Below, piece after piece: positions 6,415 to 25,398 of a stretch of 32,244 nucleotides of DNA (its first letter is position 1; each line of letters starts with the position of its first letter). The translations under genes and the position numbers were made by a program. Under the pieces are notes generated by a model that worked only from the letters and a program-made list of their open reading frames with translations, had not been told where the DNA came from and did no database searches. Source of the DNA: Saprospiraceae bacterium (GTDB lineage Bacteria; Bacteroidota; Bacteroidia; Chitinophagales; Saprospiraceae); contig JALVAD010000186.1 of the NCBI GenBank assembly GCA_027011385.1, positions 1-32,244 of the forward strand, given 5' to 3'.

Positions 6415-6713
6415 CTTGTATTTCATAAATATTTTCTGCGATTTCGATAGCTTTTTTTACTCAACCGCCCTCTAGCTCCTCCCCAAAGCATAAGCATTTG
6501 GGATTACATTTCATTTCGCAAAAAGATAGGGATAGCCCCACACCACACTCACCTACTGGGAAGTAACGGGTTGCTACCTCCCCCTGTCGTTTTATGTAAC
6601 GCAGTGAAGTAAAACTACAAGGGGGAGAGTAGAGCTCTCTCGGGATGGCAGAGGGGGCAGCTGTGCAGAGAAACAGTAAATCAACAGCAATGCGAAAAAA
6701 ATGAAATACACCT
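6415..6713. mobile_element. Fold-back/MITE-like intergenic element, copy 1 (degenerate left end)
   Basis: Right end AAAAAAATGAAATACACCT; inner block ACCGCCCTCTAGCTCC; core hairpin CTCCCCCTGTCGTTTTAT...GTAAAACTACAAGGGGGAG; homologous to 18059-18434, 23522-23815 and 24892-25128. Confidence 0.65.
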
Positions 6714-6817: not shown

Positions 6818-9800
6818 ATGACTTACCTAAGAGTAGCTTTTACTTTTATATTAGGATTTATATTTTCCATTATACTTTATTCTCAAGATGTAGAACTTTA
6901 TACCCAAGCAGATGTAGATGCTTTTGACCCAAATACAACGATGATAAGCGGCAACCTTACGATTGGTAATAAATATTATTATCTTGATCCCATTAACGAT
7001 TTATCAAATCTATCAAACCTCACTTCTATTAGTGGATATTTAGATATAAGTGGTAATAATGTCTTAACAAATATTGATGGACTAAGTAAAATTACTACCA
7101 TTGGTAAAGATTTAAATATTCGAAGTAATAAAGTATTAACAAATATTGATGGGTTAAGTAAGATTACTTCCGTTAGTGGAGTTTTGCATATTATTGACAA
7201 TAATAAACTAACAAATATTGATGGGTTAAGTAAGATTACTTCCGTTAGTGGATTATTTATTAATTTTAATGATGCATTAACAAATGTTCATGGGCTAAAT
7301 AATATCACTTCCATTGGTAAAGACTTATTTATTAGTGGCAATGCTGCGTTAACAAATGTTCATGGGCTTAGTAAGCTCTCTTCTATTGGTAAAGATTTAG
7401 ATATTAGCTGGAACAGTGTATTAACAAATATTGATGGGCTAAGTAAGATTACTTCCATTGGTAGAGATTTAGAAATCGATAAGAACAATGCATTAACAAA
7501 TATTGATGGATTAAGTAATATCACTTCTATTGGGGGGAATTTAAACATTTCTAACAATGATGCATTAACAAATATTGATGGACTTAGTAAGCTCACTTTC
7601 ATTGGTAGATCTTTACATATTATTGGTAATAATGTATTAACAAATATTAATGGACTAAGTAAGCTCACTTCCAATATTGGGTATTTAGGTATTAAAGACA
7701 ATGCTGTCTTAACAAATATTGATGGACTTAGTAAGCTCACTCTCATTGGTAACGTTTTGAATGTTTCTAGAAATAATAAACTAACAAACCTTAATGGGTT
7801 AATTAATATCACTTCTATTGGGGGAGATTTAAACATTTCTAGCAATGATGCATTAACAAATATTGATGGACTTAGTAAACTCACTTCTATTGAGGGGGAT
7901 TTACGTATTAGTGATAATGATGCATTAACAAATATTGATGGGCTAAGTAAGATAACTTCTACTAGTGGATATTTGAATATTTATTACAATGTTGCATTGA
8001 CAAATATTGATGGACTAAACAAACTCACTTCAATTGGGGGAGATTTACGTATTATTGGTAATAATGTATTAACAAATCTTGATGGGCTAAATAAAATTAC
8101 TTCTATTAGTGGACATTTGTATATTTATGATAATAATAAGCTGACAAATCTTGATGGACTAAGTAAGCTCTCTTCTATTGGGAGAGCTTTACATATTATT
8201 GGTAATAGTGTATTAACAAATATTGATGGGCTAAATAATATAACTTCCATTAGGGAAAATTTGGTTGTTTTGAAAAATATTGCATTAACAAATATTGATG
8301 GGGTAGGTAAGCTCACTTCCATTAGTGGAGATTTAGAAATTATTAATAATAATGTATTAACAAATCTTAATGGGCTAAACAAACTCACTTCCATTGGGGG
8401 AGATTTACGTATTGGTGGTAATAATGTATTAACAAATCTTGATGGGCTAAGCAAGCTAACTTCTATTGGTAGGGGTTTGTATATTTATCGCAATAATATG
8501 CTAACAAATCTTGATGGGCTAAGTAAGATTACTTCTATTGATGGGTATTTGAGTATCTATGGCAATGATGCATTGACAAATATTGATGGGCTAAACAAAC
8601 TCACTTCCATTGGGAGAGATTTAGCAATTATTGGTAATAATGTATTAACAAATCTTGATGGGCTAAGTAAAATTACTTCTATTGGTGGGTATTTAAATAT
8701 TCACTCCAATAATACACTAGCAGATTGCTGCGGTATTCAAGGAATCTTATCCACACTTAGTGCAATTGGAGAGCAAATTTACATTTATGATAATCCGTCA
8801 GAATGTAGTAGTAAGGATAAAATATTGGAATCAACATGTGAAATAAATACTAATATTCTTACCTTTCCCTCATGCATTGATGCCGAAAATGGCTCTTTAC
8901 AGATTACTGTCAATCGGTATGACACAATTCCCTTTTATTACAAATGGGAAAGGATAGAAGATAGTGCTATGGGTAGTGGAAGTAGTTTAGATAATATTTT
9001 TATTGTAGAAAATCTAAAAGGTGGAACTTATAATGTCACGGTTACCACACCTGCACCTGATACCGTTATAAAAACAGGGATTGTTTTAAATCAAATACTT
9101 GGCTCGGTATTTGAGATTATTGAAATTACTACAACTAATAGCTCCAATGGATATAATAATGGAAGTATTACGATAAAAACCGCAGGTGGAACACCACCAT
9201 ACACTTATGACTGGTCAGGAGTATCATCGGGAAGCCAAAACGGGATTGCTGATAATGGTTATACTATTAATAGCCTGGCACAAGGGGAGTATTCTATAAC
9301 GGTATCCGATAATGTGGTAAACCAACAAAGTGTTACAGTATCACTTCTTGACGAGACGGTCCCTGTATTTCCCTGTACAGAACCACTTGACATAGTTATA
9401 CTCAACGATGTTTCAGGTTCGGTAGATGCAATTGAATACAGAGAGTCCAAACAATTTTTTGTCGATTTTCTTAATGCCGCAAATATAGGCACAAATACTG
9501 ATGAGAGTAGGGCAGCTATTATTGAATGGTCTGATGGTGGCTCTCAGAAAATTCAAATTCCCATTACCGGAGATATAGCCATTTTGCAGGATTACATCTC
9601 TTATACCAGAGCATTTGATGGAAACACATCACCACATCAGGCAATGAGTTTTGGTAAAGATTATCTCGATAGTGTTGGACGTGCGGATGTTGAAAAAGTA
9701 ATTATTCTTTCTACTGATGGTGAAAGTAACCAGGTATCTCCATCTCTGATAGCATTGGCTGATAAATTCAAAGCTGCCGGATATCATATTGTCACCATAG

Positions 9801-12800
9801 CTTTTGATAATGCATTTACTAATACTGAGACAAAAGATATATTAACCAAAGTTGCTTCTAACTCTCATTTGGCTCCGGGTGCACCTGCTTATTCACTTCT
9901 TGACAAAGATTTGGCAGATAAAATAGTCAATCTCTATCTTTGCCCTATAGACCCGGGCAGTACTGCTAAAGCCTACTTTAATAGAGATGGAGCAATTGAC
10001 ATTCTCGATATTGTACCTATTGGCAATTGTCCGTATCCAGATGGTGTAGAGATAAGCTTTACCATTGAAGCTTTAAGAGAACTCTCTTTTCCTGCCGGCA
10101 CTCCGGTCACGTTTTATTTCAATAATCCTGAACTTTTTGGAGCTACTCCCATTTCAACCTGGATAATGCCCTGTGCTTTGACAGCAGGAGAAATTGATAC
10201 TTTTACTGTAATACTACCAGTTAATACAGCCGGAAATATCTTTGCCGTTCTCAATGATGATGGCAGCCAATCTCCTCCCATACAGTTTCCTGTCACCGGT
10301 ATTGAAGAACTTGCATATTCCAACAATATAGACAATCAGAGCATTTGTCTTGATGATATAGCGACTCTTCAGGCATTGAAATATACCACAACTCCCAAAC
10401 CTATCTGCGATACACTTGTGATATACACTATAAATGTATGCAATATCAGTGAAGTCGATGCTTTTGGTGTGAAAGTTAAGGATATTCCCCCCGATGATTT
10501 TGTTTTAGTTGGTACTATCTTCAATGACAATGGATGTGCTACCGATAATGGCGGGGTTTATGATATACCTGCCGGATGTTGTATATCTCTTACACTTACT
10601 TATGGCGTGGCTAATGCTGCCAATGGTTACTACGGAAATCAGGGAGTACATCTTGATGGACCTTCGGGGCAAGATTATATAGATTTTGATGGTAGCACTA
10701 CTACTTCCGAAGATGTAATTATTGACGGTACATTGGATTGTCCTTCGACGAATATTGAATTCACAAAAGAAGTAAATATCTATCAATCTTGTGATGATGC
10801 CTTTGTGGTTTATAAGTTTTCTATTAAAAATGAAATGAATATTCCTTTACAAGGACTTGTTTTTACGGATATATTATCCGATCCTTGTGTCTGGGCTTTT
10901 GAACCTTATCTGCTGGAGGGGTTAAGCATTGGTAATAGGGATATTGACGGCAATACGGCTAGCTTTGTTATTGATGAGATTCTCCCTGATACTACTGCAA
11001 CATTTTATTTGGATGCAGCTTTGAATTCTTGGGAAATGAGCGGAATTTTATCTAATACCGCCACTCTTGAAAATGTTCCTGATCCTGATAATGGTGGATA
11101 TAGAACCCTAACTTCCAATACAGTTTCCACAGATATCACAACTACTCCTACAATTATTTTACCGGATACGATATTCGCACATCAGGGGGATGAAATAGAT
11201 TTGGGAATCAACTCTACTGATTCGATTAGTTGGACAACATCTGGAGATGGTATTTTTACTGACAGCAGCAGCAATAAAACGAAATATATTCCAGGAGTTC
11301 AAGATTCACTTGACCAACAAGTGTATTTGTTCGTCTCCATAAAATCTGACTGTGGGGAAACAGGAAAAAATATTGTAATAATTTTTGAGCAATGTAGCTT
11401 GTCATTTACTTCGTTTAATATTGGAGATTGCAATGACAATGGCACTCCCTCCGATAATACCGATGATACTTATGAAGTGACTTTTAATATTTTCGCCTTA
11501 AATCCAGGTTCAAGTAACACTCTTAATGTAAAAGACAGCACCAAGACTTATGGACAGTTCAGCTACATTAGCCAAGGAAAGATAACGCTTCCTGCTGATG
11601 GATTGGATTATAATTTGGTGTTTGAGGATAGTGAAGTACCGGGTTGTACAATTCAAAAAACGGTAAGCCAACAAAGTTGCTCAGATAAACATTCAAATTA
11701 TTTTATGTCCACTTCCGGTTCTGATACAAATGATGGTACTAGCGAAGTCAATGCTTGGGCAACATTTGAGCATTCATATACTATAATGAAAGGAGGAGAT
11801 ACTCTTACGATTTTAGATGGCACATATTTCCAAGAGCTATACCCACCTGTTAAGTTATCAGGTAGCGAACATTCTTATACTATGTATAGAGCAAAGAATC
11901 CCGGAAAGGTTATTCTAGCACCTACCTCTATTGGCGATGATGAGATGGAAGGAGTGATTTATGTTTTTTCTAATATCTCGAGGGGCATAACATCCTACAT
12001 TCATTTTGATGGATTATTTGCAAAAGGTGTTGGGGAACATTCTGCAATCAGTATTGCGAGTATGGATTTTGCAACTGAGGAACAGATGACTCATCATATC
12101 ACATTAACAAGATGTGGCGCAATGGGCTCTGCTCTTGGGACAAATACAGATGCCTTTGATATTGGGTCTGTCAGAGATATATTGGTTGAAGATTGTTTTG
12201 CTTTTGGCTTCGGTCGTAAAGCAATGCAGCTTTATGGAGCTAAAAGGATTACAGTTAGAAGAATGATTGTCAGATACGATTGGTGGCAAGGACATAAATA
12301 TAAACCGAGTGATCCTAGAGTAAATCTCTCCGCATACAATACAATTGGGGCTACACTAGAAAATATCATAGCAATGGACGCAGGTCCTCATCCTGCTTCT
12401 ACTTCTCCGGACAGAGCAGGATTAGTGGCTAGTGGCAATCAGGGTGGAGGTACAGCGATTGATGGTAGCCGGGATGTGAATTATCTGGGCTGTATTGTTT
12501 TTAATAATAATGAATTTGCAAAAGGGCTAAATGCTGTTGAAGTAAATGGAGGAACAGGTTCTCCTGTCAAAAATTTATTATTTAAAGATATCGTAATTTA
12601 TGGCGCTGATGCAGGGTTCAATATCCACGATAATGTCGATAGTATCCGTTTAGAAAACATCACTTCAACTCATAATACACATATTGGAATCAGAGTAAAT
12701 CCATATCCCTCTTATACTATCTCAAACGTAAAAATTGATAAGGTGGTTTCAACAGACAATAAGTATGATGGCATATATTGGAATGAAGATATGACTCACG

Positions 12801-13432
12801 TTGAACTAAGTAATTCTACATCTGTAAGAAATGGTGAAGGAGATGATATCGAAAGCCAGTACGAACCTGAAATCAAATACTTACCTATCAATAAACCTGT
12901 AATGGGATTTGAAAGGGGAGGAATTGTCAGAAATAAATATATCGACGGAGTTTTGACGGAAGAGTCCCTATGGCCTTGGCCTTATGAAAAAGTCATTAAG
13001 GGATTTATGTGTAAAGAGGAATACTTGCAAGAAATTGCAGACAGTATCAATCTGTATGAAGGCACTAATATTGATTATGTCCCCGGATTATGCAAAACCG
13101 ACAGCTCTATTACCGGATATATTTGGTCTTATTTAGGAAATCCTTGTCCTGATACTATATGCGACAATTCAGTCAATACCGGAGATATTTTCTCGAAGAG
13201 CCAAACCAATATTGAAATCTATCCCAATCCTGCTCATAATCTAATATATATTAAAGCCAAACTTCCCTTAGACACAAATCATTATAATATTTATGATATT
13301 TGCGGTAAAAAGCTTAAATTTGGGACTATTATCGCCGGTAAGATAGATATTTCAGATTTTAGCCAAGGGGTATACTTTGTCAGAATCCAAAATAACCAAA
13401 AATTCTTACTTGGGAAATTTATTGTATTATAA
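6818..13432 (+). CDS. Giant surface protein: LRR - SprB-like repeat - vWA - dockerin-like loop - DUF11-like - beta-helix - T9SS type A sorting domain
   Basis: Signal peptide; 23 x LTNIDGLSKITSIGGDL units; 'TPPYTYDWSG...GEYSITVSD' (SprB-like); 'DIVILNDVSGSVD...STDGES' (vWA MIDAS); 'YFMSTSGSDTNDGTSEVNAWATF' beta-helix start; C-terminal 'IEIYPNPAHNLIYIKA...QGVYFVRI'. Confidence 0.9.
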   Translation: MTYLRVAFTFILGFIFSIILYSQDVELYTQADVDAFDPNTTMISGNLTIGNKYYYLDPINDLSNLSNLTSISGYLDISGNNVLTNIDGLSKITTIGKDLNIRSNKVLTNIDGLSKITSVSGVLHIIDNNKLTNIDGLSKITSVSGLFINFNDALTNVHGLNNITSIGKDLFISGNAALTNVHGLSKLSSIGKDLDISWNSVLTNIDGLSKITSIGRDLEIDKNNALTNIDGLSNITSIGGNLNISNNDALTNIDGLSKLTFIGRSLHIIGNNVLTNINGLSKLTSNIGYLGIKDNAVLTNIDGLSKLTLIGNVLNVSRNNKLTNLNGLINITSIGGDLNISSNDALTNIDGLSKLTSIEGDLRISDNDALTNIDGLSKITSTSGYLNIYYNVALTNIDGLNKLTSIGGDLRIIGNNVLTNLDGLNKITSISGHLYIYDNNKLTNLDGLSKLSSIGRALHIIGNSVLTNIDGLNNITSIRENLVVLKNIALTNIDGVGKLTSISGDLEIINNNVLTNLNGLNKLTSIGGDLRIGGNNVLTNLDGLSKLTSIGRGLYIYRNNMLTNLDGLSKITSIDGYLSIYGNDALTNIDGLNKLTSIGRDLAIIGNNVLTNLDGLSKITSIGGYLNIHSNNTLADCCGIQGILSTLSAIGEQIYIYDNPSECSSKDKILESTCEINTNILTFPSCIDAENGSLQITVNRYDTIPFYYKWERIEDSAMGSGSSLDNIFIVENLKGGTYNVTVTTPAPDTVIKTGIVLNQILGSVFEIIEITTTNSSNGYNNGSITIKTAGGTPPYTYDWSGVSSGSQNGIADNGYTINSLAQGEYSITVSDNVVNQQSVTVSLLDETVPVFPCTEPLDIVILNDVSGSVDAIEYRESKQFFVDFLNAANIGTNTDESRAAIIEWSDGGSQKIQIPITGDIAILQDYISYTRAFDGNTSPHQAMSFGKDYLDSVGRADVEKVIILSTDGESNQVSPSLIALADKFKAAGYHIVTIAFDNAFTNTETKDILTKVASNSHLAPGAPAYSLLDKDLADKIVNLYLCPIDPGSTAKAYFNRDGAIDILDIVPIGNCPYPDGVEISFTIEALRELSFPAGTPVTFYFNNPELFGATPISTWIMPCALTAGEIDTFTVILPVNTAGNIFAVLNDDGSQSPPIQFPVTGIEELAYSNNIDNQSICLDDIATLQALKYTTTPKPICDTLVIYTINVCNISEVDAFGVKVKDIPPDDFVLVGTIFNDNGCATDNGGVYDIPAGCCISLTLTYGVANAANGYYGNQGVHLDGPSGQDYIDFDGSTTTSEDVIIDGTLDCPSTNIEFTKEVNIYQSCDDAFVVYKFSIKNEMNIPLQGLVFTDILSDPCVWAFEPYLLEGLSIGNRDIDGNTASFVIDEILPDTTATFYLDAALNSWEMSGILSNTATLENVPDPDNGGYRTLTSNTVSTDITTTPTIILPDTIFAHQGDEIDLGINSTDSISWTTSGDGIFTDSSSNKTKYIPGVQDSLDQQVYLFVSIKSDCGETGKNIVIIFEQCSLSFTSFNIGDCNDNGTPSDNTDDTYEVTFNIFALNPGSSNTLNVKDSTKTYGQFSYISQGKITLPADGLDYNLVFEDSEVPGCTIQKTVSQQSCSDKHSNYFMSTSGSDTNDGTSEVNAWATFEHSYTIMKGGDTLTILDGTYFQELYPPVKLSGSEHSYTMYRAKNPGKVILAPTSIGDDEMEGVIYVFSNISRGITSYIHFDGLFAKGVGEHSAISIASMDFATEEQMTHHITLTRCGAMGSALGTNTDAFDIGSVRDILVEDCFAFGFGRKAMQLYGAKRITVRRMIVRYDWWQGHKYKPSDPRVNLSAYNTIGATLENIIAMDAGPHPASTSPDRAGLVASGNQGGGTAIDGSRDVNYLGCIVFNNNEFAKGLNAVEVNGGTGSPVKNLLFKDIVIYGADAGFNIHDNVDSIRLENITSTHNTHIGIRVNPYPSYTISNVKIDKVVSTDNKYDGIYWNEDMTHVELSNSTSVRNGEGDDIESQYEPEIKYLPINKPVMGFERGGIVRNKYIDGVLTEESLWPWPYEKVIKGFMCKEEYLQEIADSINLYEGTNIDYVPGLCKTDSSITGYIWSYLGNPCPDTICDNSVNTGDIFSKSQTNIEIYPNPAHNLIYIKAKLPLDTNHYNIYDICGKKLKFGTIIAGKIDISDFSQGVYFVRIQNNQKFLLGKFIVL
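7058..8710 (+). repeat. 23 tandem 72-bp (24-aa; one 23-aa) leucine-rich repeats
   Basis: Hand-parsed units from NVLTNIDGLSKITTIGKDLNIRSN to NVLTNLDGLSKITSIGGYLNIHSN, followed by the CCGIQ...ECSS cap. Confidence 0.92.
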
Positions 13433-13467
13433 AATTAGGCTTTTGCATCTTTGAAAATATCAATATT
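13433..13467 (+). promoter_or_regulatory. Truncated leader of the second LRR gene (AATTAGGCTTTTGCATCTTTGAAAATATCAATATT), lacking the TAnnTTTG core
   Basis: Matches the leaders of 6818 and 18539 only from ATTAGGC onward; directly abuts the stop codon of the preceding gene. Confidence 0.6.
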
Positions 13468-16400
13468 ATGACTTACCTAAGAATAGCATTTACCCTTATA
13501 TTAGGATTTGCCCTTTCCACTATACTTTATTCTCAAGATGTAACGCTCAGAACCCAAGCAAATGTAGATGCTTTTGACCCCAACACAACTACGATAAGCG
13601 GTAATCTTACTATTGGTGAAATTAATAGCTCTGATCCTATTACCGATTTGTCAAATCTATCAAACCTCACCTCTGTTGGTGGAGATTTAAAAATCTATTA
13701 CAATTATAAACTAACAAATCTTGATGGGCTAAGCAAGCTCACTTCTATTGGTGAGAATTTAAATATTAGTTACAGTAATGTATTAACAAATCTTGATGGG
13801 CTAAGCAAGCTCACTTCTATTGGTGAGAATTTAGATATTAATTACAATAATGCATTAACAAATATTGATGGGCTAAACAAGCTCACTTCTATTACTGGAG
13901 AGTTAAAAATCATTAGTAATAATGTCTTAACAAATCTTAATGGTCTAAGTAATATTACTTCCGTTGATGGGAATTTCGATATAGTTAGTAATGATGTATT
14001 AACAGATCTTGATGGACTAAGCAATATCACTTCCGTTGGTGGATATTTAGATATTAGAGTTAATATTGTATTAACAAATATTAATGGACTTAGTAATCTC
14101 ACTTCCGTTAGTGGATTGAGTATTTCCAGCAATGATGCATTAACAAATCTTGATGGGCTAAATAATATCATTTCCATTGATGAGTATTTAAATATTAGTA
14201 ATAATAATGTATTAACAAATATTGATGGACTTAGTAATCTCACTTCCGTTAGTGGATTGAGTATTTCCAGCAATGATGCATTAACAAATCTTGATGGGCT
14301 AAGTAAGATTACTTCCATTAGTGGAGGATTGAGTATTTCCAGCAATAATGCCTTAATAAATCTTGATGGGCTAAGTAATCTCACTTCTATTGGAGTACAT
14401 TTAACGATTATGGAGAATAAAGTCTTAACAAATATTGATGGTCTAAGTAAGCTCACTTCCATTGGGGAAAATTTGTATATTTCTAGCAATAATACACTAA
14501 CAAATCTTGATGGGCTAAGTAAGATATCTTCCATCAATGGGGATTTAAGTGTTTATGGCAATAATAAACTAACAAATCTTGATGGGCTAAATAAGATCTC
14601 TTCCATTGGTGGGTATTTACTTATTTGGAACAATTATGATTTAATAAATATTGAAGGACTTAGTAATCTTACTTCTATTGGTGAGTATTTACTTATTGAA
14701 GGAAATGATGTGTTAACAAATCTTGAAGGACTAAGTAATCTCACTTTTATTGGTGGGAATTTAGATATTAGAATCAATCATGCACTAACAGATTGCTGTG
14801 GTATTCAAGAAATATTATCTACACCCGGAGCAATTGGAGGGCAAATCAACGTTTATAATAATCCTTCAGAATGTAGTAGTAAGGAAGAAATATTGGAATC
14901 TTGTTTCAATATTACTATTTTGGTTTTTCCTCCTTGTCTAGATGCCGACAATGGCTCTTTACAGATTACAGTCAATGGATATGATACAATTCCTTTTTAT
15001 TACAAGTGGGAAAGGATAGAAGATAGTGCTATGGGTAGTGGAAGTAGTTTTGATAATATTTTTAATATAGAAAATCTAAAAAGCGGAACTTATAATGTCA
15101 CAGTTACCACGACCGCACTCGATACTATTATAAAAACCGGAATTGTTTTAAATCAAATATCTGGCTCTCTATTTGAGATTATTGAAATCACAACCACTAA
15201 TAGCTCCAATGGGTATAATAACGGAAGCATTACAGTAAAAATAGCGGGTGGTATACCACCTTATACTTATGATTGGTCAGGAATATCTACAGGAAGCCAA
15301 AGCGGAATTACTGGTGATAATTATACTATTATCAACCTACCACAAGGGGAGTATTCTATAACAGTATCTGATGATGTATGGAATCAACAAATTGTAGAGG
15401 TATCACTTCTAGATGAGACAGTCCCTGTGTTTCCTTGTACAGAACCACTTGACATAGTCATTCTCAACGATGTTTCTAGTTCTGTAGATGCAACTGAATA
15501 CAGAGAGTCTAAACAATTTTTTGTCAATTTTCTTAATGCAGCAAATATCGGTACAAATGCTAATGATAGCAGAGCCGCTATTGTTGAATGGTCTGATGGT
15601 GGCTCTCAGAAAATTCAAATACCTATTACAGGAGATATTGCTACTTTACAGGATTACATCTCTTATACCAGAGTATTTGATGGTGGTACATCACCACATC
15701 AGGCATTGAGTTTTGGTAAAGATTATCTTGACAGTTTTGGACGTGCAGATGTAGAGAAAGTAATAATTCTTTCTACTGATGGTAGACGTAACCAGATATC
15801 TTCATCTTTGATAGCATTGGCGGACAAATTAAAAGCTGCCGGCTATCATATTATCACAATAGCTTTTGATAATGCATTTGCAAATAGTGAGACAAGAGAT
15901 TTATTAACCAAAGTTGCTTCCAACCCTCAATTGGCTCCTGGTGCCCCCGCATATTCACTTCTTGACGAAGATTTAGCAGATAGAATTGTCAAAATCTATC
16001 TTTGTCCGATTGACCCGGGAAGTACTTCTACAGCATACTTCAATAGAGATGGAGCAATAGACATCCTCGATATTATGCCTTTTGGAAATTGTCCGAATCC
16101 CTATGGTGTAGAGATAAGTTTTACCATTGAGGCCTTAAGAGAATTGTCTCTTCCTGCCGGAACTCCTATCACTTTTTATTTCAATAATCCTGAACTTTTT
16201 GGAGCTACTCCCATTTCAACTTGGAGAATGCCATGTGCTTTGGCAGCAGGAGAAATTGATACTTTTTCGGTAATATTACCCGTTAATACCGCCGGAAATA
16301 TCTTTGCAGTTCTCAATGATGATGAAAGCCAATCTCCACCTATACTGTTTCCCCTCACCAATATTGAAGAACTTGCATATTCCAATAATATAGACAATCA

Positions 16401-18048
16401 AAGTATTTGTCTTGATGATAAAGCAACTCTACAGGCTTTGAAATATACTACAACTCCCAAACCTATCTGCGATACACTTGTGATATACACTATAAGTATA
16501 TGCAATATCAGTGAAGTAGATGCTTTTGGTGTGGTAGTTGAGGATATTCCTCCTGATGATTTTGTTTTAGTGGGCACTATCTTCAATGACAATGGATGTG
16601 CTACCGATAATGGCGGCATGGTTTATGATATTCCTACCGGATGTTGTATTTCTCTTACACTTACATATGACGCTGCTAATGCTATCAATGGTTATTACGG
16701 AAATCAGGGAGTAGATATTGACGGATCTTCAGGGCAAGATTATATAGATTTTGATGGTAGTACGACTACTTCCGAAGATGTGATTATTGACGGCACATTG
16801 GATTGCCCTTCGACGAATATTGAGTTCACAAAAGAAGTAAATATCTATCAATCTTGCGATGACGCCTTTGTTGTTTATAAGTTTTCTATTAAAAATGAAA
16901 TGAATATTCCTCTACAAGGGCTTGTTTTTACGGATATTTTACCCGATCCTTGTGTCTGGGCTTTTGAACCATATCTACTGGAAGGTTTAAGCGTTGGCAA
17001 TAGGAATATTGATGGCAATATGGCAAGCTTTGTCATTGATGAGGTTCTACCTGATACTACTGCAATATTTTATTTGGATGCAGCTTTGAGCTCTTGGGAT
17101 ATAAGTGGAATTTTATCAAACACCGCCGCTCTAGAAAATGTTCCTAATCCTGATAATGGTGGGTATAGAACCCTAACTTCCAATACAGTTTCCACAGATA
17201 TCACAGCTACTCCTTCAATCATTATACCGGATACGATATTTGCACATCTTGGGGATGAAATAGATTTGGAAATCAATTCTACAGATTCGATTAGTTGGAC
17301 AACATCAGGAGATGGTATTTTTTCCAACAGCAGCAGCAGTAAAACGAAATATATTCTCGGAGCTCAAGATTCGATTGATCACCAAGTGTATTTGTTCATC
17401 TCTATAAAATCTGACTGTGGGGAAACAGGAAAAAACATTGTAATTATTTTTGAGCAATGCCGTTTATCCATTACATCGGTAAATATTGGTGATTGCGATA
17501 ATAAAGATACTCCCTTGGAAAATACAGATGATACTTATGATGTTACTTTCAATATCTCAGCTATAAATCAGGATACCAATGTTACTTATACGGTAAAAGA
17601 CAGCACTAAGAGTTATGGTCAATTCAGCTACAATAGCGAAGGAAAGATAACGCTTCCAGCTGATGGATTGGATTATACGTTGGTGTTTGAGGACAGCGAA
17701 ATATCAGGTTGTACAATTCAAAAAGTGGTAAGCCAAAAAAGTTGTTCGGATAGTAATATAAAAAAACTGCTAATCGATATTCCAAATATTTTTACACCGG
17801 ATGACGATGGATACAATGACAAATGGTACGTGAAAATATCAGACCAAAGATTAAAAATACTCTCTTGCAAAATCTTTGATAGATGGGGTGAATTGGTTTA
17901 TTTTTCTGAAAATGATAATCATTTTTATTGGGATGGCCGGTTCAAAAATCGTAAAGCTATGCAAGGTGTGTATGTTTATGTTATTGAATATGCTATTGAT
18001 AATGGGAAAACGGTAACTGTAGCAGGAGATTTGACATTGATAAGATAG
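13468..18048 (+). CDS. Paralogous giant surface protein: LRR - SprB-like - vWA - DUF11-like - T9SS type B (CHU_C/gliding-motility C-terminal) domain
   Basis: Same architecture as 6818-13432; C-terminus 'IPNIFTPDDDGYNDKWYVK...KIFDRWGELVYFSEN...WDGRFKNRKAMQGVYVYVIEY...VAGDLTLIR'. Confidence 0.92.
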   Translation: MTYLRIAFTLILGFALSTILYSQDVTLRTQANVDAFDPNTTTISGNLTIGEINSSDPITDLSNLSNLTSVGGDLKIYYNYKLTNLDGLSKLTSIGENLNISYSNVLTNLDGLSKLTSIGENLDINYNNALTNIDGLNKLTSITGELKIISNNVLTNLNGLSNITSVDGNFDIVSNDVLTDLDGLSNITSVGGYLDIRVNIVLTNINGLSNLTSVSGLSISSNDALTNLDGLNNIISIDEYLNISNNNVLTNIDGLSNLTSVSGLSISSNDALTNLDGLSKITSISGGLSISSNNALINLDGLSNLTSIGVHLTIMENKVLTNIDGLSKLTSIGENLYISSNNTLTNLDGLSKISSINGDLSVYGNNKLTNLDGLNKISSIGGYLLIWNNYDLINIEGLSNLTSIGEYLLIEGNDVLTNLEGLSNLTFIGGNLDIRINHALTDCCGIQEILSTPGAIGGQINVYNNPSECSSKEEILESCFNITILVFPPCLDADNGSLQITVNGYDTIPFYYKWERIEDSAMGSGSSFDNIFNIENLKSGTYNVTVTTTALDTIIKTGIVLNQISGSLFEIIEITTTNSSNGYNNGSITVKIAGGIPPYTYDWSGISTGSQSGITGDNYTIINLPQGEYSITVSDDVWNQQIVEVSLLDETVPVFPCTEPLDIVILNDVSSSVDATEYRESKQFFVNFLNAANIGTNANDSRAAIVEWSDGGSQKIQIPITGDIATLQDYISYTRVFDGGTSPHQALSFGKDYLDSFGRADVEKVIILSTDGRRNQISSSLIALADKLKAAGYHIITIAFDNAFANSETRDLLTKVASNPQLAPGAPAYSLLDEDLADRIVKIYLCPIDPGSTSTAYFNRDGAIDILDIMPFGNCPNPYGVEISFTIEALRELSLPAGTPITFYFNNPELFGATPISTWRMPCALAAGEIDTFSVILPVNTAGNIFAVLNDDESQSPPILFPLTNIEELAYSNNIDNQSICLDDKATLQALKYTTTPKPICDTLVIYTISICNISEVDAFGVVVEDIPPDDFVLVGTIFNDNGCATDNGGMVYDIPTGCCISLTLTYDAANAINGYYGNQGVDIDGSSGQDYIDFDGSTTTSEDVIIDGTLDCPSTNIEFTKEVNIYQSCDDAFVVYKFSIKNEMNIPLQGLVFTDILPDPCVWAFEPYLLEGLSVGNRNIDGNMASFVIDEVLPDTTAIFYLDAALSSWDISGILSNTAALENVPNPDNGGYRTLTSNTVSTDITATPSIIIPDTIFAHLGDEIDLEINSTDSISWTTSGDGIFSNSSSSKTKYILGAQDSIDHQVYLFISIKSDCGETGKNIVIIFEQCRLSITSVNIGDCDNKDTPLENTDDTYDVTFNISAINQDTNVTYTVKDSTKSYGQFSYNSEGKITLPADGLDYTLVFEDSEISGCTIQKVVSQKSCSDSNIKKLLIDIPNIFTPDDDGYNDKWYVKISDQRLKILSCKIFDRWGELVYFSENDNHFYWDGRFKNRKAMQGVYVYVIEYAIDNGKTVTVAGDLTLIR
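13705..14778 (+). repeat. 15 tandem LRR units (13 x 24 aa, 2 x 23 aa)
   Basis: Hand-parsed from YKLTNLDGLSKLTSIGENLNISYS to DVLTNLEGLSNLTFIGGNLDIRIN. Confidence 0.92.
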
Positions 18049-18058
18049 TGATATAATG

Positions 18059-18434
18059 AGGTGTATTTCATTTTTTCGCGTTTTGCAATACTGCCCTCTA
18101 ACTCCCTGTTTCTTCGCAGACTTCGAAACCGGGAAAACCGCACCCCGCATTTCCCTCCGCAATTCCCTTGATAAGCGAGTGTCTCTGACCTCGCTTCTTG
18201 CAAAATGCACTACTCCTGTGCTGATGCACAGGTTCTTTCACTATCAAGTGAGATCTACTCACTTGATTTTTGATAAAATCAAAACCATTCAATCATCCCC
18301 CTATCATTGTTCGTAACAAAGTGAAGAAAAATTATAAGGGGGAGAGCAGGGCATTTGCGGGATGGTAGAGGGGGCGGTTGTGCCAATAAACAGTAGTGTC
18401 AATCTGTAATGAAAAAAAAAAATGAGATGCACCT
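18059..18434. mobile_element. Fold-back/MITE-like element, copy 2, with TAATG target-site duplication
   Basis: Ends AGGTGTATTTCATTTTTT ... AAAAAATGAGATGCACCT (imperfect TIR); TAATG at 18054-18058 and 18435-18439; core hairpin CTCCCCCTAT...ATAAGGGGGAG. Confidence 0.72.
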
Positions 18435-18450
18435 TAATGATGGAATAAAT

Positions 18451-18500
18451 ATATTTCTTTATATTTTTTTGTAACTTTGATTCATTATTAGGCTTTTGCA
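18451..18500 (+). promoter_or_regulatory. Conserved promoter/leader module (TAACTTTG at 18472-18479; ATTAGGCTTTTGC)
   Basis: Near-identical to 6722-6791. Confidence 0.6.
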
Positions 18501-18538
18501 TCTTTGAAATTATTGAAATTAACGAAAATATCAATATT

Positions 18539-21500
18539 ATGACTTACCTAAAAATAGCTTTTACCTTTATATTAGGATTTGCCCTTTCCTCTCTGCTTTA
18601 CTCACAAGATGTAAAGCTTTATACCCAAGCAGATGTAGATGCCTTTGACCCCAATACAACGATGATAAGCGGTAATCTAGAGATTGGTAGTACTTATGGC
18701 AATGATCCCATCACAGATTTATCAAATCTATCAAACCTAACTTCCATTGGTGGATATTTAAAAATCTATAACAATGATGCATTAACAAATCTCGATGGGT
18801 TAAGTAAACTCACATCTATTGGGGGTTTTTTAATTATTACAACCAATGATACTTTAACCGATATTAATGGGCTAAATAAGCTCTCTTCCATTGGTGGAGA
18901 TTTGATTATTTCCAACAATTCTAAACTATCAAATATTGATGGGCTAAATAATCTAATTTCCATTGGTGGAGATTTGATTATTTACAACAATTCTAAACTA
19001 TCAAATATTGATGGGCTAAATAAGCTCACTTCCATTGGTGGAGGTTTGATTATTTATTACAATGATGCATTAACAAATATTGATGGGCTAAATAATCTAA
19101 TTTCTATTGGGGGAAAATTATATATTAGAAACAATGATGCTTTAACAAATATTGATGGATTAGGTAAAATTACTTCAGTAAGTGAAAATTTGACCATTAT
19201 TAACAATAAAAAACTAACAAATATTGATGGGCTAAATAAACTCACTTCCATTAATGGATATTTAAGAATTTCTGGAAATGATATATTATCAAATTTTGAT
19301 GGTTTAAGTAGTCTTAATACTATTGATAAATATTTAAAAATTGTTAACAATAAAAAACTAACAGATTGCTGTGGTATTCAAGAAATCTTATCTACACCCG
19401 GAGCAATTGGAGGGCAAATTATAATTTATAATAATCCGTCAGAATGTAGTAGTAAAGAAGAAGTATTGGAATCATCATGTGGAATAAAGATTAATATTCT
19501 CACTTTTCCTCCTTGTATTGATGCCGATAACGGCTCTTTACAAATTACTGTAAAGAGATATGATACAATTCCTTTTTATTACAAATGGGAACGGATAGAA
19601 GATAGTGCTATGGGTAGTGGAAGTAGTTTTGATAATATTTTTAATATAGAAAATCTAAAAGGAGGAACTTATAATATCACTGTTACCACGAACGCACCTG
19701 ATACTATTATAAATACAGGAATTGTTTTAAATCAAATATCCGGCTCTGTATTTGAGATTATTGAAATCACTACTACTAATAGCTCCAATGGATATAACAA
19801 TGGTAGCATTACTGTAAAAACAGCAGGTGGTATATCGCCATATACTTATGATTGGTCAGGAATATCCACAGGAAGCTATATAGGAATTACTGATGATAAT
19901 TATACCATTGATAACCTTACACAAGGTGAGTATTCTATAACAGTATCCGATGATGCCGGGAATCAACAAAGTATCGCAGTATCACTTCTAGATGAGACAA
20001 TCCCTACATTTCCCTGTACAGAACCAATTGATATAATTATACTCAACGATGTTTCTGGATCAGTAAACGCAACTGAATATAAAGAGTCTAAACAATTTTT
20101 TGTTGATTTTCTTAATGCAGTAAATATAGGCACAAACGCTGATGATAGCAGGGCAGCTATTGTTGAATGGTCTTCTTATAGCCCTCCGAAAATTCAAATT
20201 CCTATTACCGGAGATATTGCGACTTTACAGGATTACATCTCTTACAATAGAGTATTTTATGGAGGTACATCTCCACATCTGGCAATGAGTTTTGGTAAAA
20301 AATATCTTGACAGTGTTGGACGCGTAGATGTAGAAAAGGTAATTATTCTTTCTACTGATGGAAGTTATGGTCAGGTATCTCCATCATTGATAGCATTGGC
20401 TGACAAATTCAAAGCTGCCGGATATCATATTGTCACCATAGCTTTTGATAATGCATTTGCTTATAGTAGTACAAGAGATATATTAACCGAAGTTGCTTCT
20501 ATCCCTCAGTTAGCTCCGGGTGCTCCTGCATATTCACTTCTAGATGGAGATTTAGCAAATAAAATAGTCAATCTCTATCTTTGTCCGATAGACCCCGGAA
20601 GTACTGCTACAGCGTATTTCAATAGAGACGGGTCAATTGACATTCTTGATATTGTACCTATTGGCAATTGTCCGTATCCCGATGGTGTAGAGATAAATTT
20701 TACAATTGAGGCTTTAAGAGAACTGTCTCTTCCTGCCGGTACTCCTGTTACGTTTTATTTCAATAACCCTGAACTTTTCGGAACTACTCCCATTTTAACC
20801 TGGATAATGCCCTGCGCTTTGGCAGCAGGAGAAATTGATACTTTTTCTGTAATATTACCTGTTAATACCCCCGGAAACATCTTTGCTGTTCTCAATGATG
20901 ATGGCAGCCAATCTCCTCCTATACAGTTTCCTATCACCAATATTGAAGAACTTGCATATTCCAATAATATAGACAATCAGAGCATTTGTCTTGATGATAG
21001 AGCTACTTTACAGGCATTGAAATATACTACAACTCCCAAACCTATCTGCGATACACTTGTGATATACACTATAAACGTATGCAATATCAGTGAAGTAGAT
21101 GCTTTTGGTGTCGTAGTTGAGGATATTCCTCCCGATGATTTTGTTTTGGTGGGCACTGTCTTCAATGACAATGGATGTGCTACCGATAATGGCGGGGTTT
21201 ATGATATTCCTGCCGGATGTTGTATTTCTCTTACACTTACTTATGATGCTGCGAATGCTGCCAATGGTTACTACGGAAATCAGGGAGTAAATATCGATGG
21301 ACCATCAGGGCAAGATTATATAGATTTTGATGGTAGCACTACTACTGCTGAAGATGTGATTATTGACGATACATTGGATTGTCCTTCGACAAATATTGAA
21401 TTCACAAAGGAAGTAAATATCTACCAATCTTGCGACGATGCCTTTGTGGTTTATAAGTTTTCTATTAAAAATGAAATGAATATTCCTCTACAAGGGCTTG

Positions 21501-23515
21501 TTTTTACGGATATTTTACCCGATCCTTGTGTCTGGGCTTTTGAACCATATCTACTGGAAGGTTTAAGCATTGGCAATAGAGATATTGATGGCAATAAGGC
21601 TAGCTTTGTTATTGATGAGGTTCTCCCTGATACTACTGCAACATTTTATTTGGATGCAGCTTTGAGCTCTTGGGATATAAGCGGAATTTTATCAAATACT
21701 GCCACTCTCCAAAATATTCCCGATCCTGATAATGGTGGATATAGAACGCTAACTTCCAATACGGTTTCCACAAATGTCACAGCTACTCCTACAATTATTT
21801 TGCCGGATACTATATTCGCACATCAGGGGGATGAAATAGATTTGGAAATCAATTCTACGGATTCGATTAGTTGGACAACATCAGGAGATGGTATTTTTTC
21901 CGACAGCAGCAGTAGTAAAACGAAATATATTCCAGGAGTTCAAGATTCGATTGACCAAAAAGTGTATTTATTCGTCTCCGTAAAATCTGACTGTGGGGAA
22001 ACAGGAAAAAACATTGTAATTATTTTTGAGCAATGTAGTTTGTCCATTACTTCGGTAAACATCGGTGATTGCAAAGACAATGACACTCCATCAGATAATA
22101 CTGATGACACCTATGAAGTGACTTTTAATATTTCCGCCTTAAATCCCGGTTCAAACGGTACTTTTACGGTAAAAGATGGCACTAAAGATTATGGGCAATT
22201 CAACTACAATAGTGAGGGAATGATAACACTTCCTGCTGATGGATTGGATTATACTTTGGTATTTGAGGATAGTGAATTATCAGGTTGCACTATACAAAAA
22301 GTGGTAAATCAAGAGAGTTGCTCGGATGAATGTTCTATGAGTATTGATAGTATTCTTATAGGAGATTGCAATGATAATGGCACTCCCTCAGACAATACCG
22401 ATGATACTTATGATGTAACTTTCAATATTTCAGCCTTAAATCCGGGTTCTAATTCTACTTATACGGTAAAAGACAACACAAAGAATTACGGTCAATTCAA
22501 CTACAATAATGAGGGAAAGATAACGCTTCCTGCTAATGGATTGAATTATACATTGGTATTTGAGGATAGTGAAAAATCTGGTTGTACAATTCAAAAAATT
22601 GTAAGCCATGAAAGTTGTTCGGATGATTGTTCTATGAATATTGATAGTATTGTTATCGGTGATTGTAATGACAATGACACTCCCTCAGATAATACGGATG
22701 ACACCTATGAAGTGACTTTCAATATTTCAGCTTTGAATCCGGGTTCCAATGCTACTTATACGGTAAAAGATGGAACTAAGGATTATGGGCAATTCAGCTA
22801 CAATAGCGCGGAAAAGATAACACTTCCTGCTGATGGATTGGATTATACCTTGGTGTTTGAGGATAGTGAAATATCAGGTTGTACTATACAAAAAGTGGTA
22901 AATAAGCAAAGTTGTTCGGACGAATGTTCTATGAATATTGATAGTATTGTTATTGGTGATTGTGATGACAATGGCACTCCATCAGACAATACGGATGACA
23001 CCTATGAAGTAACTTTCCAAATATCAGCCTTAAATCCGGGTTCTAATGCTACTTATGCAGTAAAAAACGGCATTAAGGATTATGGTCAGTTCAGCTACAA
23101 TAGCGAGGGAAAGATAACGCTTCCTGCTAATGGTTTGGATTATACTTTAGTGTTTGAGGATAGCGAAAAATCGGGTTGCACAATTCAAAAAGAGGTAAGC
23201 CAACAAAGCTGTTCCAATAGTATTGTAGAAAAACCTGTAATAGATATTCCAAATATTTTTACTCCAAATGATGATGGACACAATGACAAATGGTATGTAA
23301 AAATATCAGACCAAAGAATAAAAATACTCTCTTGCAAAATTTATGATAGATGGGGTGAATTGGTTTATTTTTCTGAAAATGATAATAATTTTTATTGGGA
23401 TGGTCGGTTCAAAAATCGTAAAGCTATGCAAGGCGTATATGTTTATGTCATTGAATATAACATTGATAATGGGAAAACGGTAACTGTAGCAGGGGATTTG
23501 ACATTGATAAGATAG
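18539..23515 (+). CDS. Paralogous giant surface protein: LRR - SprB-like - vWA - DUF11-like - 4 x 99-aa repeats - T9SS type B domain
   Basis: Same signal peptide and order of domains; C-terminus 'IPNIFTPNDDGHNDKWYVK...AGDLTLIR'. Confidence 0.92.
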   Translation: MTYLKIAFTFILGFALSSLLYSQDVKLYTQADVDAFDPNTTMISGNLEIGSTYGNDPITDLSNLSNLTSIGGYLKIYNNDALTNLDGLSKLTSIGGFLIITTNDTLTDINGLNKLSSIGGDLIISNNSKLSNIDGLNNLISIGGDLIIYNNSKLSNIDGLNKLTSIGGGLIIYYNDALTNIDGLNNLISIGGKLYIRNNDALTNIDGLGKITSVSENLTIINNKKLTNIDGLNKLTSINGYLRISGNDILSNFDGLSSLNTIDKYLKIVNNKKLTDCCGIQEILSTPGAIGGQIIIYNNPSECSSKEEVLESSCGIKINILTFPPCIDADNGSLQITVKRYDTIPFYYKWERIEDSAMGSGSSFDNIFNIENLKGGTYNITVTTNAPDTIINTGIVLNQISGSVFEIIEITTTNSSNGYNNGSITVKTAGGISPYTYDWSGISTGSYIGITDDNYTIDNLTQGEYSITVSDDAGNQQSIAVSLLDETIPTFPCTEPIDIIILNDVSGSVNATEYKESKQFFVDFLNAVNIGTNADDSRAAIVEWSSYSPPKIQIPITGDIATLQDYISYNRVFYGGTSPHLAMSFGKKYLDSVGRVDVEKVIILSTDGSYGQVSPSLIALADKFKAAGYHIVTIAFDNAFAYSSTRDILTEVASIPQLAPGAPAYSLLDGDLANKIVNLYLCPIDPGSTATAYFNRDGSIDILDIVPIGNCPYPDGVEINFTIEALRELSLPAGTPVTFYFNNPELFGTTPILTWIMPCALAAGEIDTFSVILPVNTPGNIFAVLNDDGSQSPPIQFPITNIEELAYSNNIDNQSICLDDRATLQALKYTTTPKPICDTLVIYTINVCNISEVDAFGVVVEDIPPDDFVLVGTVFNDNGCATDNGGVYDIPAGCCISLTLTYDAANAANGYYGNQGVNIDGPSGQDYIDFDGSTTTAEDVIIDDTLDCPSTNIEFTKEVNIYQSCDDAFVVYKFSIKNEMNIPLQGLVFTDILPDPCVWAFEPYLLEGLSIGNRDIDGNKASFVIDEVLPDTTATFYLDAALSSWDISGILSNTATLQNIPDPDNGGYRTLTSNTVSTNVTATPTIILPDTIFAHQGDEIDLEINSTDSISWTTSGDGIFSDSSSSKTKYIPGVQDSIDQKVYLFVSVKSDCGETGKNIVIIFEQCSLSITSVNIGDCKDNDTPSDNTDDTYEVTFNISALNPGSNGTFTVKDGTKDYGQFNYNSEGMITLPADGLDYTLVFEDSELSGCTIQKVVNQESCSDECSMSIDSILIGDCNDNGTPSDNTDDTYDVTFNISALNPGSNSTYTVKDNTKNYGQFNYNNEGKITLPANGLNYTLVFEDSEKSGCTIQKIVSHESCSDDCSMNIDSIVIGDCNDNDTPSDNTDDTYEVTFNISALNPGSNATYTVKDGTKDYGQFSYNSAEKITLPADGLDYTLVFEDSEISGCTIQKVVNKQSCSDECSMNIDSIVIGDCDDNGTPSDNTDDTYEVTFQISALNPGSNATYAVKNGIKDYGQFSYNSEGKITLPANGLDYTLVFEDSEKSGCTIQKEVSQQSCSNSIVEKPVIDIPNIFTPNDDGHNDKWYVKISDQRIKILSCKIYDRWGELVYFSENDNNFYWDGRFKNRKAMQGVYVYVIEYNIDNGKTVTVAGDLTLIR
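18776..19351 (+). repeat. 8 tandem 72-bp LRR units
   Basis: Hand-parsed from DALTNLDGLSKLTSIGGFLIITTN to DILSNFDGLSSLNTIDKYLKIVNN. Confidence 0.92.
22034..23221 (+). repeat. Four tandem 297-bp (99-aa) repeats 'CSMNIDSIVIGDCNDNGTPSDNTDDTYEVTFNISALNPGSN...GCTIQKVVSQQSCSD'
   Basis: Units start at 22034, 22331, 22628 and 22925 with exact 297-nt spacing; one copy each in the two upstream paralogs. Confidence 0.92.
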
Positions 23516-23521
23516 TGATGA

Positions 23522-23815
23522 AGGTGCATTTCATTTTTTCGCTTTTTGCAATACTGCCCTCCCGTAGAAACCTTTACAGGTTTTACGGGACAGGTCTAAC
23601 TCCCTGTTTCTTCGCAGACTTCGAAACCGGGAAAACCGCAACCCGCATTTCCCTTTACAATGAGTCGCGGGATGCTACCTCCCCCTATCATTGTTCGTAA
23701 CAAAGTGAAGAAAAATTATAAGGGGGAGAGTAAAGCATTTGTGGGATGGATGAGGGGGCAGTTGTGCTGATAAACAGGAATATCAATCCGCAAAGGAGAA
23801 AAATGAAATGCACCC
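23522..23815. mobile_element. Fold-back/MITE-like element, copy 3
   Basis: TIRs (A)GGTGCATTTCATTTTT / AAAAATGAAATGCACC; shared interior with copy 2 (ACTCCCTGTTTCTTCGCAGACTTCGAAACCGGGAAAACCGCA) and core hairpin. Confidence 0.72.
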
Positions 23816-24879: not shown

Positions 24880-24891
24880 TTAGTGTCTGTA

Positions 24892-25128
24892 AGGTGCATT
24901 TCATTTTATTTTTTTGAATAAAATTTTATTGCCTTGTGGCAAATTGATAAAGATATACAAGAATTTTATAGTACGACATTGAGTGTTGCTACCTCCCCCT
25001 ATCATTTTTCGTAACAAAGTGAAGAAAAATTATTAGGGGGAGAGCAGAGCATTTGCGGGATGGTTGAGGGGGCGGTTGTGCTAAAAAACGGAAGTGTCAA
25101 TCCGTAAAGTAAAAAAATAAAATGTACT
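24892..25128. mobile_element. Fold-back/MITE-like element, copy 4
   Basis: AGGTGCATTTCATTTTATTTTTTT ... AAAAAAATAAAATGTACT; core CTCCCCCTATCATTTTTC...GAAAAATTATTAGGGGGAG. Confidence 0.68.
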
Positions 25129-25172
25129 CATGCAGCAAATTGAAGATTAAAAACATCTTAATAGTATTAATA

Positions 25173-25333
25173 GTGTCTGCACGAAAACACATCAAATTTG
25201 AAATTGATTCTTTTTGTCATCTTTTAACTTTTTCACAAGTGATTGATACTATGGCATCAAATCATTGTAAAAAAATCAAAATCTAAACAAAAGTCATCTG
25301 AATTTCAAAAATTGTCTGTTTTCGTGCAGACAC
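25173..25333. mobile_element. Second, unrelated 161-bp non-autonomous TIR element (MITE) with TAATA target-site duplication
   Basis: Perfect palindromic ends TAGTGTCTGCACGAAAACA (25171-25189) / TGTTTTCGTGCAGACACTA (25317-25335); TAATA at 25168-25172 and 25334-25338; imperfect TIR continues inward (TTGAAATT); no transposase ORF. Confidence 0.75.
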
Positions 25334-25398
25334 TAATATCATTTAGCTTTCATCATCCTGTGAATTTATCATATTCTTCATTATAAAATTCTGTTGAT

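Follow-up and report, generated by a model that had tools for sequence, protein, structure and literature searches.

A covarying hairpin in dispersed, MITE-like palindromic elements of a Saprospiraceae genus

The core hairpin and its four copies in the window

The stretch of DNA that we have analysed, which we refer to as the window, is 32,244 nucleotides long, and its contig belongs to a 4.47-Mb Saprospiraceae assembly of 655 contigs (G000). Positions 6818-23515 hold three tandem paralogous genes of very large size (2204, 1526 and 1658 aa), in which 24-residue LTNIDGLSKITSI-type repeats are numerous; copies of a MITE occur before, between and after these genes. Each copy carries a hairpin that we call the core; a related hairpin on the left arm of the element is called hairpin A. 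The features of the four copies are the following:

6466..6713, plus strand: degraded MITE, copy 1, with a left-arm remnant (CGCCCTCTAGCTCC) at 6466-6479 and the right terminal repeat at 6692-6713
6500..6535, minus strand: degraded inverted core-like hairpin (CTATCCCTATCTTTTTGCGAAATGAAATGTAATCCC) at the place of hairpin A in copy 1, from a weak profile match
6578..6627, plus strand: core hairpin of copy 1, with a GC-type stem (GTC..GTTTTA/TAAAAC..AC), from sequence and fold
18059..18434, plus strand: complete 376-bp MITE, copy 2, with terminal repeats at 18059-18079 and ~18413-18434 and a degenerate target duplication
18295..18344, plus strand: core hairpin of copy 2, AT-type, with a one-sided G at ATTGTT, from an R1 match at 18287-18384
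23522..23815, plus strand: MITE, copy 3, with terminal repeats at 23522-23542 and ~23794-23815 and no target duplication left
23600..23633, plus strand: hairpin A of copy 3 (CTCCCTGTTTC...GAAACCGGGA), which corresponds on the left arm to the core, from sequence and the fold of an element of the same type
23679..23728, plus strand: core hairpin of copy 3, AT-type, with a one-sided G at ATTGTT, from an R1 match at 23671-23768
24892..25129, plus strand: MITE, copy 4, with diverged terminal repeats at 24892-24912 and ~25108-25129
24993..25042, plus strand: core hairpin of copy 4, AT-type, from sequence and an R1 match at 24985-25082

The core of copy 1, at window positions 6578-6627, reads CTCCCCCTGTCGTTTTATGTAACGCAGTGAAGTAAAACTACAAGGGGGAG; the R1 model match for this copy extends over 6570-6667 of the window contig, and the hairpin folded alone gives z = -4.5 against dinucleotide shuffles. 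The core of copy 4, at 24993-25042, reads CTCCCCCTATCATTTTTCGTAACAAAGTGAAGAAAAATTATTAGGGGGAG. The first-pass annotation had recognised both hairpins at the right sites, with coordinates that were 1-3 bases off, and the exchanges that it had described between them are present in the sequence: on both arms at once, G:C is replaced by A:T twice and A:T by T:A once. The loop that it had taken to be fixed is another matter, as GTAACnnAGTGRAG is found in one subfamily only, while other subfamilies have TGGAATGCAATGGA, in which a base pair of the loop varies between CG and TA. Nearly all copies keep a C.T mismatch in the stem, as well as a bulge of one base. In copies 2 and 3 of the window the change has occurred on one arm only, so that the four window copies by themselves could not decide whether the stem covaries.

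When searched by itself, the loop motif matches almost exclusively the core hairpin and its hairpin A counterpart. The core loop also resembles a repeat, GTCATTCTGAACGAAGTGAAGAATCT, that we take to occur in other phyla; this is a resemblance only, and the repeat was not found printed in the literature searched. Comparison of copy 1 with complete copies has not revealed a left terminal repeat; its minus-strand motif at 6500..6535 is the same as in two other copies (L022 and L136). AGTGTCTGCACGAAAACA is found repeatedly, also in inverted form, at 24880-24890, at 25170-25340 in the gap that follows copy 4, and in G002; it is possibly another small repeat element.

The surrounding element and its distribution

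Copies of the core have been gathered by DNA search, pattern search and a covariance model, giving at least 118 usable copies (110 distinct) in five genomes that belong to a single Saprospiraceae genus: at least 40 in the window's genome (G000), at least 33 in G004, at least 23 in G002, at least 13 in G001 and at least 9 in G003. A GTDB-wide scan with a stem pattern independent of the loop, over 84,980 species, has matched only four Saprospiraceae MAGs of this group, and no core hairpin has been found in the 32 other genera of Saprospiraceae searched. The copies are intergenic, 114 of the 118 listed cores being located outside ORFs of at least 150 aa, and the orientations of the flanking genes are even (19/16/13/13 for the 61 copies with both neighbours). 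Sister genomes share near-identical orthologous copies, whose divergence is too small for a test of purifying selection.

Most cores in G000, G002 and G004 are flanked by inverted copies of RGGTGCATTTCATTTTTTCGC, i.e. by terminal inverted repeats of ~21 bp, which have at least 122 matches in G000 versus none for a reversed-pattern control. The 47 paired elements fall into size classes of ~88-90, 225, 259 and 310-375 bp; the elements are thus small (88 to ~375 bp), non-coding and without room for a transposase, and tens of them occur per genome. Target duplications of 8 bp (at least 6/8 identical) border 27 of the 47 elements, including core-bearing copies of 257-372 bp, versus 1.4% of mismatched controls (p ~1e-37). 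The 88-90 bp version is also present in G007, from another genus of Saprospiraceae, and in G017 (another genus) a related element interrupts a relic of an IS1595 transposase, with a perfect 9-bp duplication, TCTTATGAT. We have rejected this relic as a source of the ends; it is an insertion target.

In the long versions, the interior is a large imperfect palindrome made up of an outer stem (TTTTGCANNRCTGCCCTC/GAGGGGGCAGNTGTGC), hairpin A on the left arm, a central stem (CAACCCGC/GCGGGTTG) and the core; the loop of hairpin A is an inverted relative of the core loop. The folding of one copy gives z = -6.0 as RNA and -4.7 as DNA and broadly supports this layout, with a central stem that differs between the predictions; folding of the whole element is consistent with the hairpin and adds little to the covariation described below. 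The RGGTGCATTTCATTTTTTCGC-type terminal repeats are nearly absent around the cores and arms of G001 and G003, and part of the G004 cores likewise lack them, so that the inner palindrome must have another route to spread or persist.

Some copies of the element contain additional inserted palindromes. A 36-bp palindrome, AGTTTACCCCGTGAAATCAACGAAGTATTTCACTGG, is present inside the element at one locus of G000 (L020) and absent from the orthologous locus of G002 (L162), with no clear target duplication, and many G004 copies hold inserts of a similar kind. At another pair of loci (L198 and L030), G002 carries an extra insertion of ~170 bp, whose ends resemble AGTGCTCTGCGCA...TGCGCAGTGCACT and which is apparently a second MITE family.

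Covariation of the stem and the branches on which pairing was kept

The 110 distinct cores have been aligned with MAFFT (66 nt) and a tree has been built with FastTree. Column pairs were scored by an APC-corrected G, and the null consisted of 400 simulated alignments in which the parsimony changes were re-placed on their original branches and the site rates were preserved; the procedure is modelled on R-scape, which is itself a different program. An alignment of many copies was the check that the first-pass annotation had proposed for its claim of covariation, and the three pairs that it had named are ranked first to third among 2,145 column pairs: pair 21-50 (AT 62, TA 24, GC 19; E = 0 with 400 simulations and 110 cores), pair 26-45 (TA 53, CG 25, AT 19; E = 0, likewise with 400 simulations and 110 cores) and pair 18-53 (AT 73, GC 32; E = 0.005, same simulations and cores). 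The loop pair 33-38 (CG/TA/TG) reaches E 0.04 if counting is restricted to stem pairs. The remaining high scores belong to adjacent columns 4-8, where an upstream block is swapped in one subfamily, and to subfamily combinations within the same stem.

The same three pairs remain at ranks 1-3 when the core columns alone are used, and again after thinning to 58 sequences (E = 0 each). Part of their significance is lost at 30 and 18 sequences; with 30, the first two ranks are still held by two of the pairs (E 0.01 and 0.07), while E is 1.7 for the third. The three pairs also lead the long-range pairs when the element is aligned over its full length (E 0, 0.19 and 0.75). With a separate tool, 95.7% of the cells are paired in the true structure versus 52.6-62.5% when the partners are slid by 1-3 columns, and the covariation score is 0.176 versus at most 0.075 for the slid partners. 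The covariation is therefore statistically clear over many copies, which means that pairing has been retained while the sequence changed.

Pairing has not been retained equally throughout the tree. On internal branches, ~17 pair changes keep or restore Watson-Crick pairing versus 14 that break it, while on terminal branches 7 have restored or kept it versus ~58 that broke it (Fisher p = 4e-6); these event counts are rough, since both the tree and the ancestral states were derived from 66 aligned nucleotides, and parsimony may inflate the contrast. Changes per column amount to 1.3 in the stem versus 2.9 at unpaired positions on internal branches, and to 3.0 versus 3.4 on terminal branches, where we estimate that the ratio of G.U to broken pairs is near the expectation from single random substitutions. 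As internal changes keep pairs and terminal changes mostly break them, the structure probably mattered in the multiplying lineages and matters little in most inserted copies. The view of the first-pass annotation that the structure is maintained, rather than being a passive remnant, thus holds for the propagating lineages and is not supported for most individual copies, which, those of the window included, resemble the decaying remains of a structured mobile element. Selection probably acted on propagating source copies, and probably on folded DNA.

Explanations of the paired changes and relation to known systems

In our judgement, the hairpin, rather than being an RNA gene by itself, is probably the right-arm stem-loop of a nested palindrome carried by non-autonomous DNA transposons (MITEs) that form a genus-level family and whose folded source copies have been favoured. 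Its copies are dispersed and inserted between genes, they have terminal inverted repeats and 8-bp target duplications, and their stem covaries around a C.T mismatch and a bulge; the terminal repeats, the target duplications and the small, multi-copy, non-coding form fit a MITE, and no partner transposon sharing the ends has been found among the three transposase families searched. The element would be mobilised by a transposase encoded elsewhere, and its palindrome may fold while single-stranded, either during replication or upon the release of a strand in transposition. Folded copies would have propagated better, so that source lineages came to exchange both bases of their pairs, and after insertion most copies would escape constraint and then decay.

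In another reading, the inner palindrome would itself act as a selfish structural module: a putative protein would recognise hairpins with the common loop motif and the conserved mismatch as folded single-stranded DNA (or RNA), the hairpins would insert into each other, giving nested palindromes, and they would have hitch-hiked into an older 90-bp MITE. We regard this as unlikely.

Compensatory base changes are commonly taken to prove a functional RNA, and it is conceivable, if unlikely, that copies that are read through form an RNA stem-loop that stabilises, terminates or regulates the transcript, with selection on the RNA yielding the covariation. The three pairs that are significant under a phylogeny-aware null, the stable predicted RNA fold (z -4.5 for the core and -6.0 for the full element) and the four window copies, all of which share their strand with the downstream genes, would agree with such a function; however, over the 61 copies with both neighbours the orientation is even, and the stem pairs decay on terminal branches. 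Rfam gives no family at the gathering threshold, with one chance-level match elsewhere (E 0.47, among matches with E up to 1). An RNA of the plus strand is expected to tolerate G.U more than A.C, but the 39 events of G.U type versus 29 of A.C type indicate no clear bias (p = 0.27). With no Rfam match, an even orientation, insertion outside ORFs and no clear G.U bias, we consider folded DNA likelier than RNA to be the selected form.

The paired changes could also be mutational, if template switching within the palindrome uses one arm as the template for the other and so keeps the two complementary without selection. This mechanism is known, palindromes serve as its substrates, and it has been proposed to create compensatory pairs without selection in RNA hairpins (PMC8794818); in some subfamilies, several pairs have in fact changed together. 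We consider this explanation quite unlikely. Columns 20.51 hold a pyrimidine.pyrimidine mismatch in 101 of the 110 copies (C.T 80, T.C 14, T.T 6, C.C 1), and the unpaired C.T is located between covarying pairs 18-53 and 21-50, with the bulged base beside 18-53. A copied tract spanning both pairs would repair the C.T, but the changed subfamilies are still mismatched (GC,CT,GC,AT in 11 copies; GC,CT,AT,TA in 8; AT,TC,TA,CG in 11); the bulge adjoining pair 18-53 is likewise retained, and the pair types occur in at least five combinations. The mismatch kept between covarying pairs thus argues against simple long-tract copying, while very short tracts are a possible source of the paired changes.

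That the core itself is a mobile or protein-bound module inserted in the MITE, comparable to the REP hairpins that a Y1 (RAYT-type) transposase mobilises, is very improbable. The inverted loop motif common to the core and hairpin A, the occurrence of cores with no terminal repeats in G001, in G003 and in some of the G004 copies, the 36-bp palindrome of one species that is missing from the orthologous copy of another, and the Y1 genes of 4/5 genomes speak for it, but the same flanking arms accompany the core nearly always, no insertion of the core as a single hairpin has been seen, and the Y1 genes have no core nearby, most of these genes having GTAG-type REPs of quite another sequence on their flanks, e.g. 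AAGCCCCGTTAGGGGCGACATTATGGTAG.

Among known systems, the MITE reading has its closest company in RUP, NEMIS, Nezha, ERIC and BrickBuilt (Porphyromonas), with likeness judged from their descriptions (PMC3733652, PMC4596501). The Saprospiraceae element has in common with these MITEs a size of ~70-400 bp, the lack of coding sequence, terminal inverted repeats, target duplications, a high copy number, an intergenic location and a predicted fold-back structure; what sets it apart from their descriptions is a statistically tested covariation around a conserved mismatch, together with nested hairpins forming a palindrome that is also found where the terminal repeats are missing. It resembles the REP/RAYT system (GTAG- and CGTC-tagged repeats, PMC3733652) in its small, dispersed, intergenic palindromes with an internal mismatch and in the presence of Y1 genes in the same genomes, but its core is not associated with those genes, and in the three richest genomes most copies are bounded by terminal repeats and 8-bp target duplications. 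Imperfect hairpins also occur at the ends of IS200/IS605 elements and in their derivatives, where a protein could read the mismatch and the loop as single-stranded DNA; these elements are not known to make target duplications, whereas those of the Saprospiraceae element are clear.

The literature on Saprospiraceae MITEs and on bacterial MITEs with compensatory changes, in a search outside which most subscription journals lay, contains no description of this family; a MITE family of Saprospiraceae with such unusually elaborate nested palindromes is thus apparently undescribed. Its structural signal is unusually clear. The formal covariation test is passed inside a transposon whose individual copies appear almost unconstrained, so that selection acting on the source element can be told from selection acting on single copies; more than 100 natural copies with a conserved mismatch allow template switching to be distinguished from selection.

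Our search for a mobiliser has revealed no IS1595-family gene in the genus and no IS1 or IS256 genes in seven genomes. No transposon of the IS1595, IS1 or IS256 families with RGGTGCATTTCATTTTTTCGC ends has been found in these fragmented MAGs, which may lack the autonomous partner, and the only pair of terminal repeats spaced 420-5000 bp apart, among the loci read, is one of 727 bp (L281). Y1 genes are present in 4/5 genomes of the genus; none of ten Y1 loci has a core hairpin nearby, and at 4/6 loci read the flanks hold different GTAG-type REPs, e.g. AAGCCCCGTTAGGGGCGACATTATGGTAG, that are unrelated to the core. As the Y1 genes are accompanied by other REPs, Y1/RAYT has been rejected as the mobiliser. 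RAYT-like Y1 genes with flanking arrays of GTAG-type REPs are located at L292, L293, L289 and L290.
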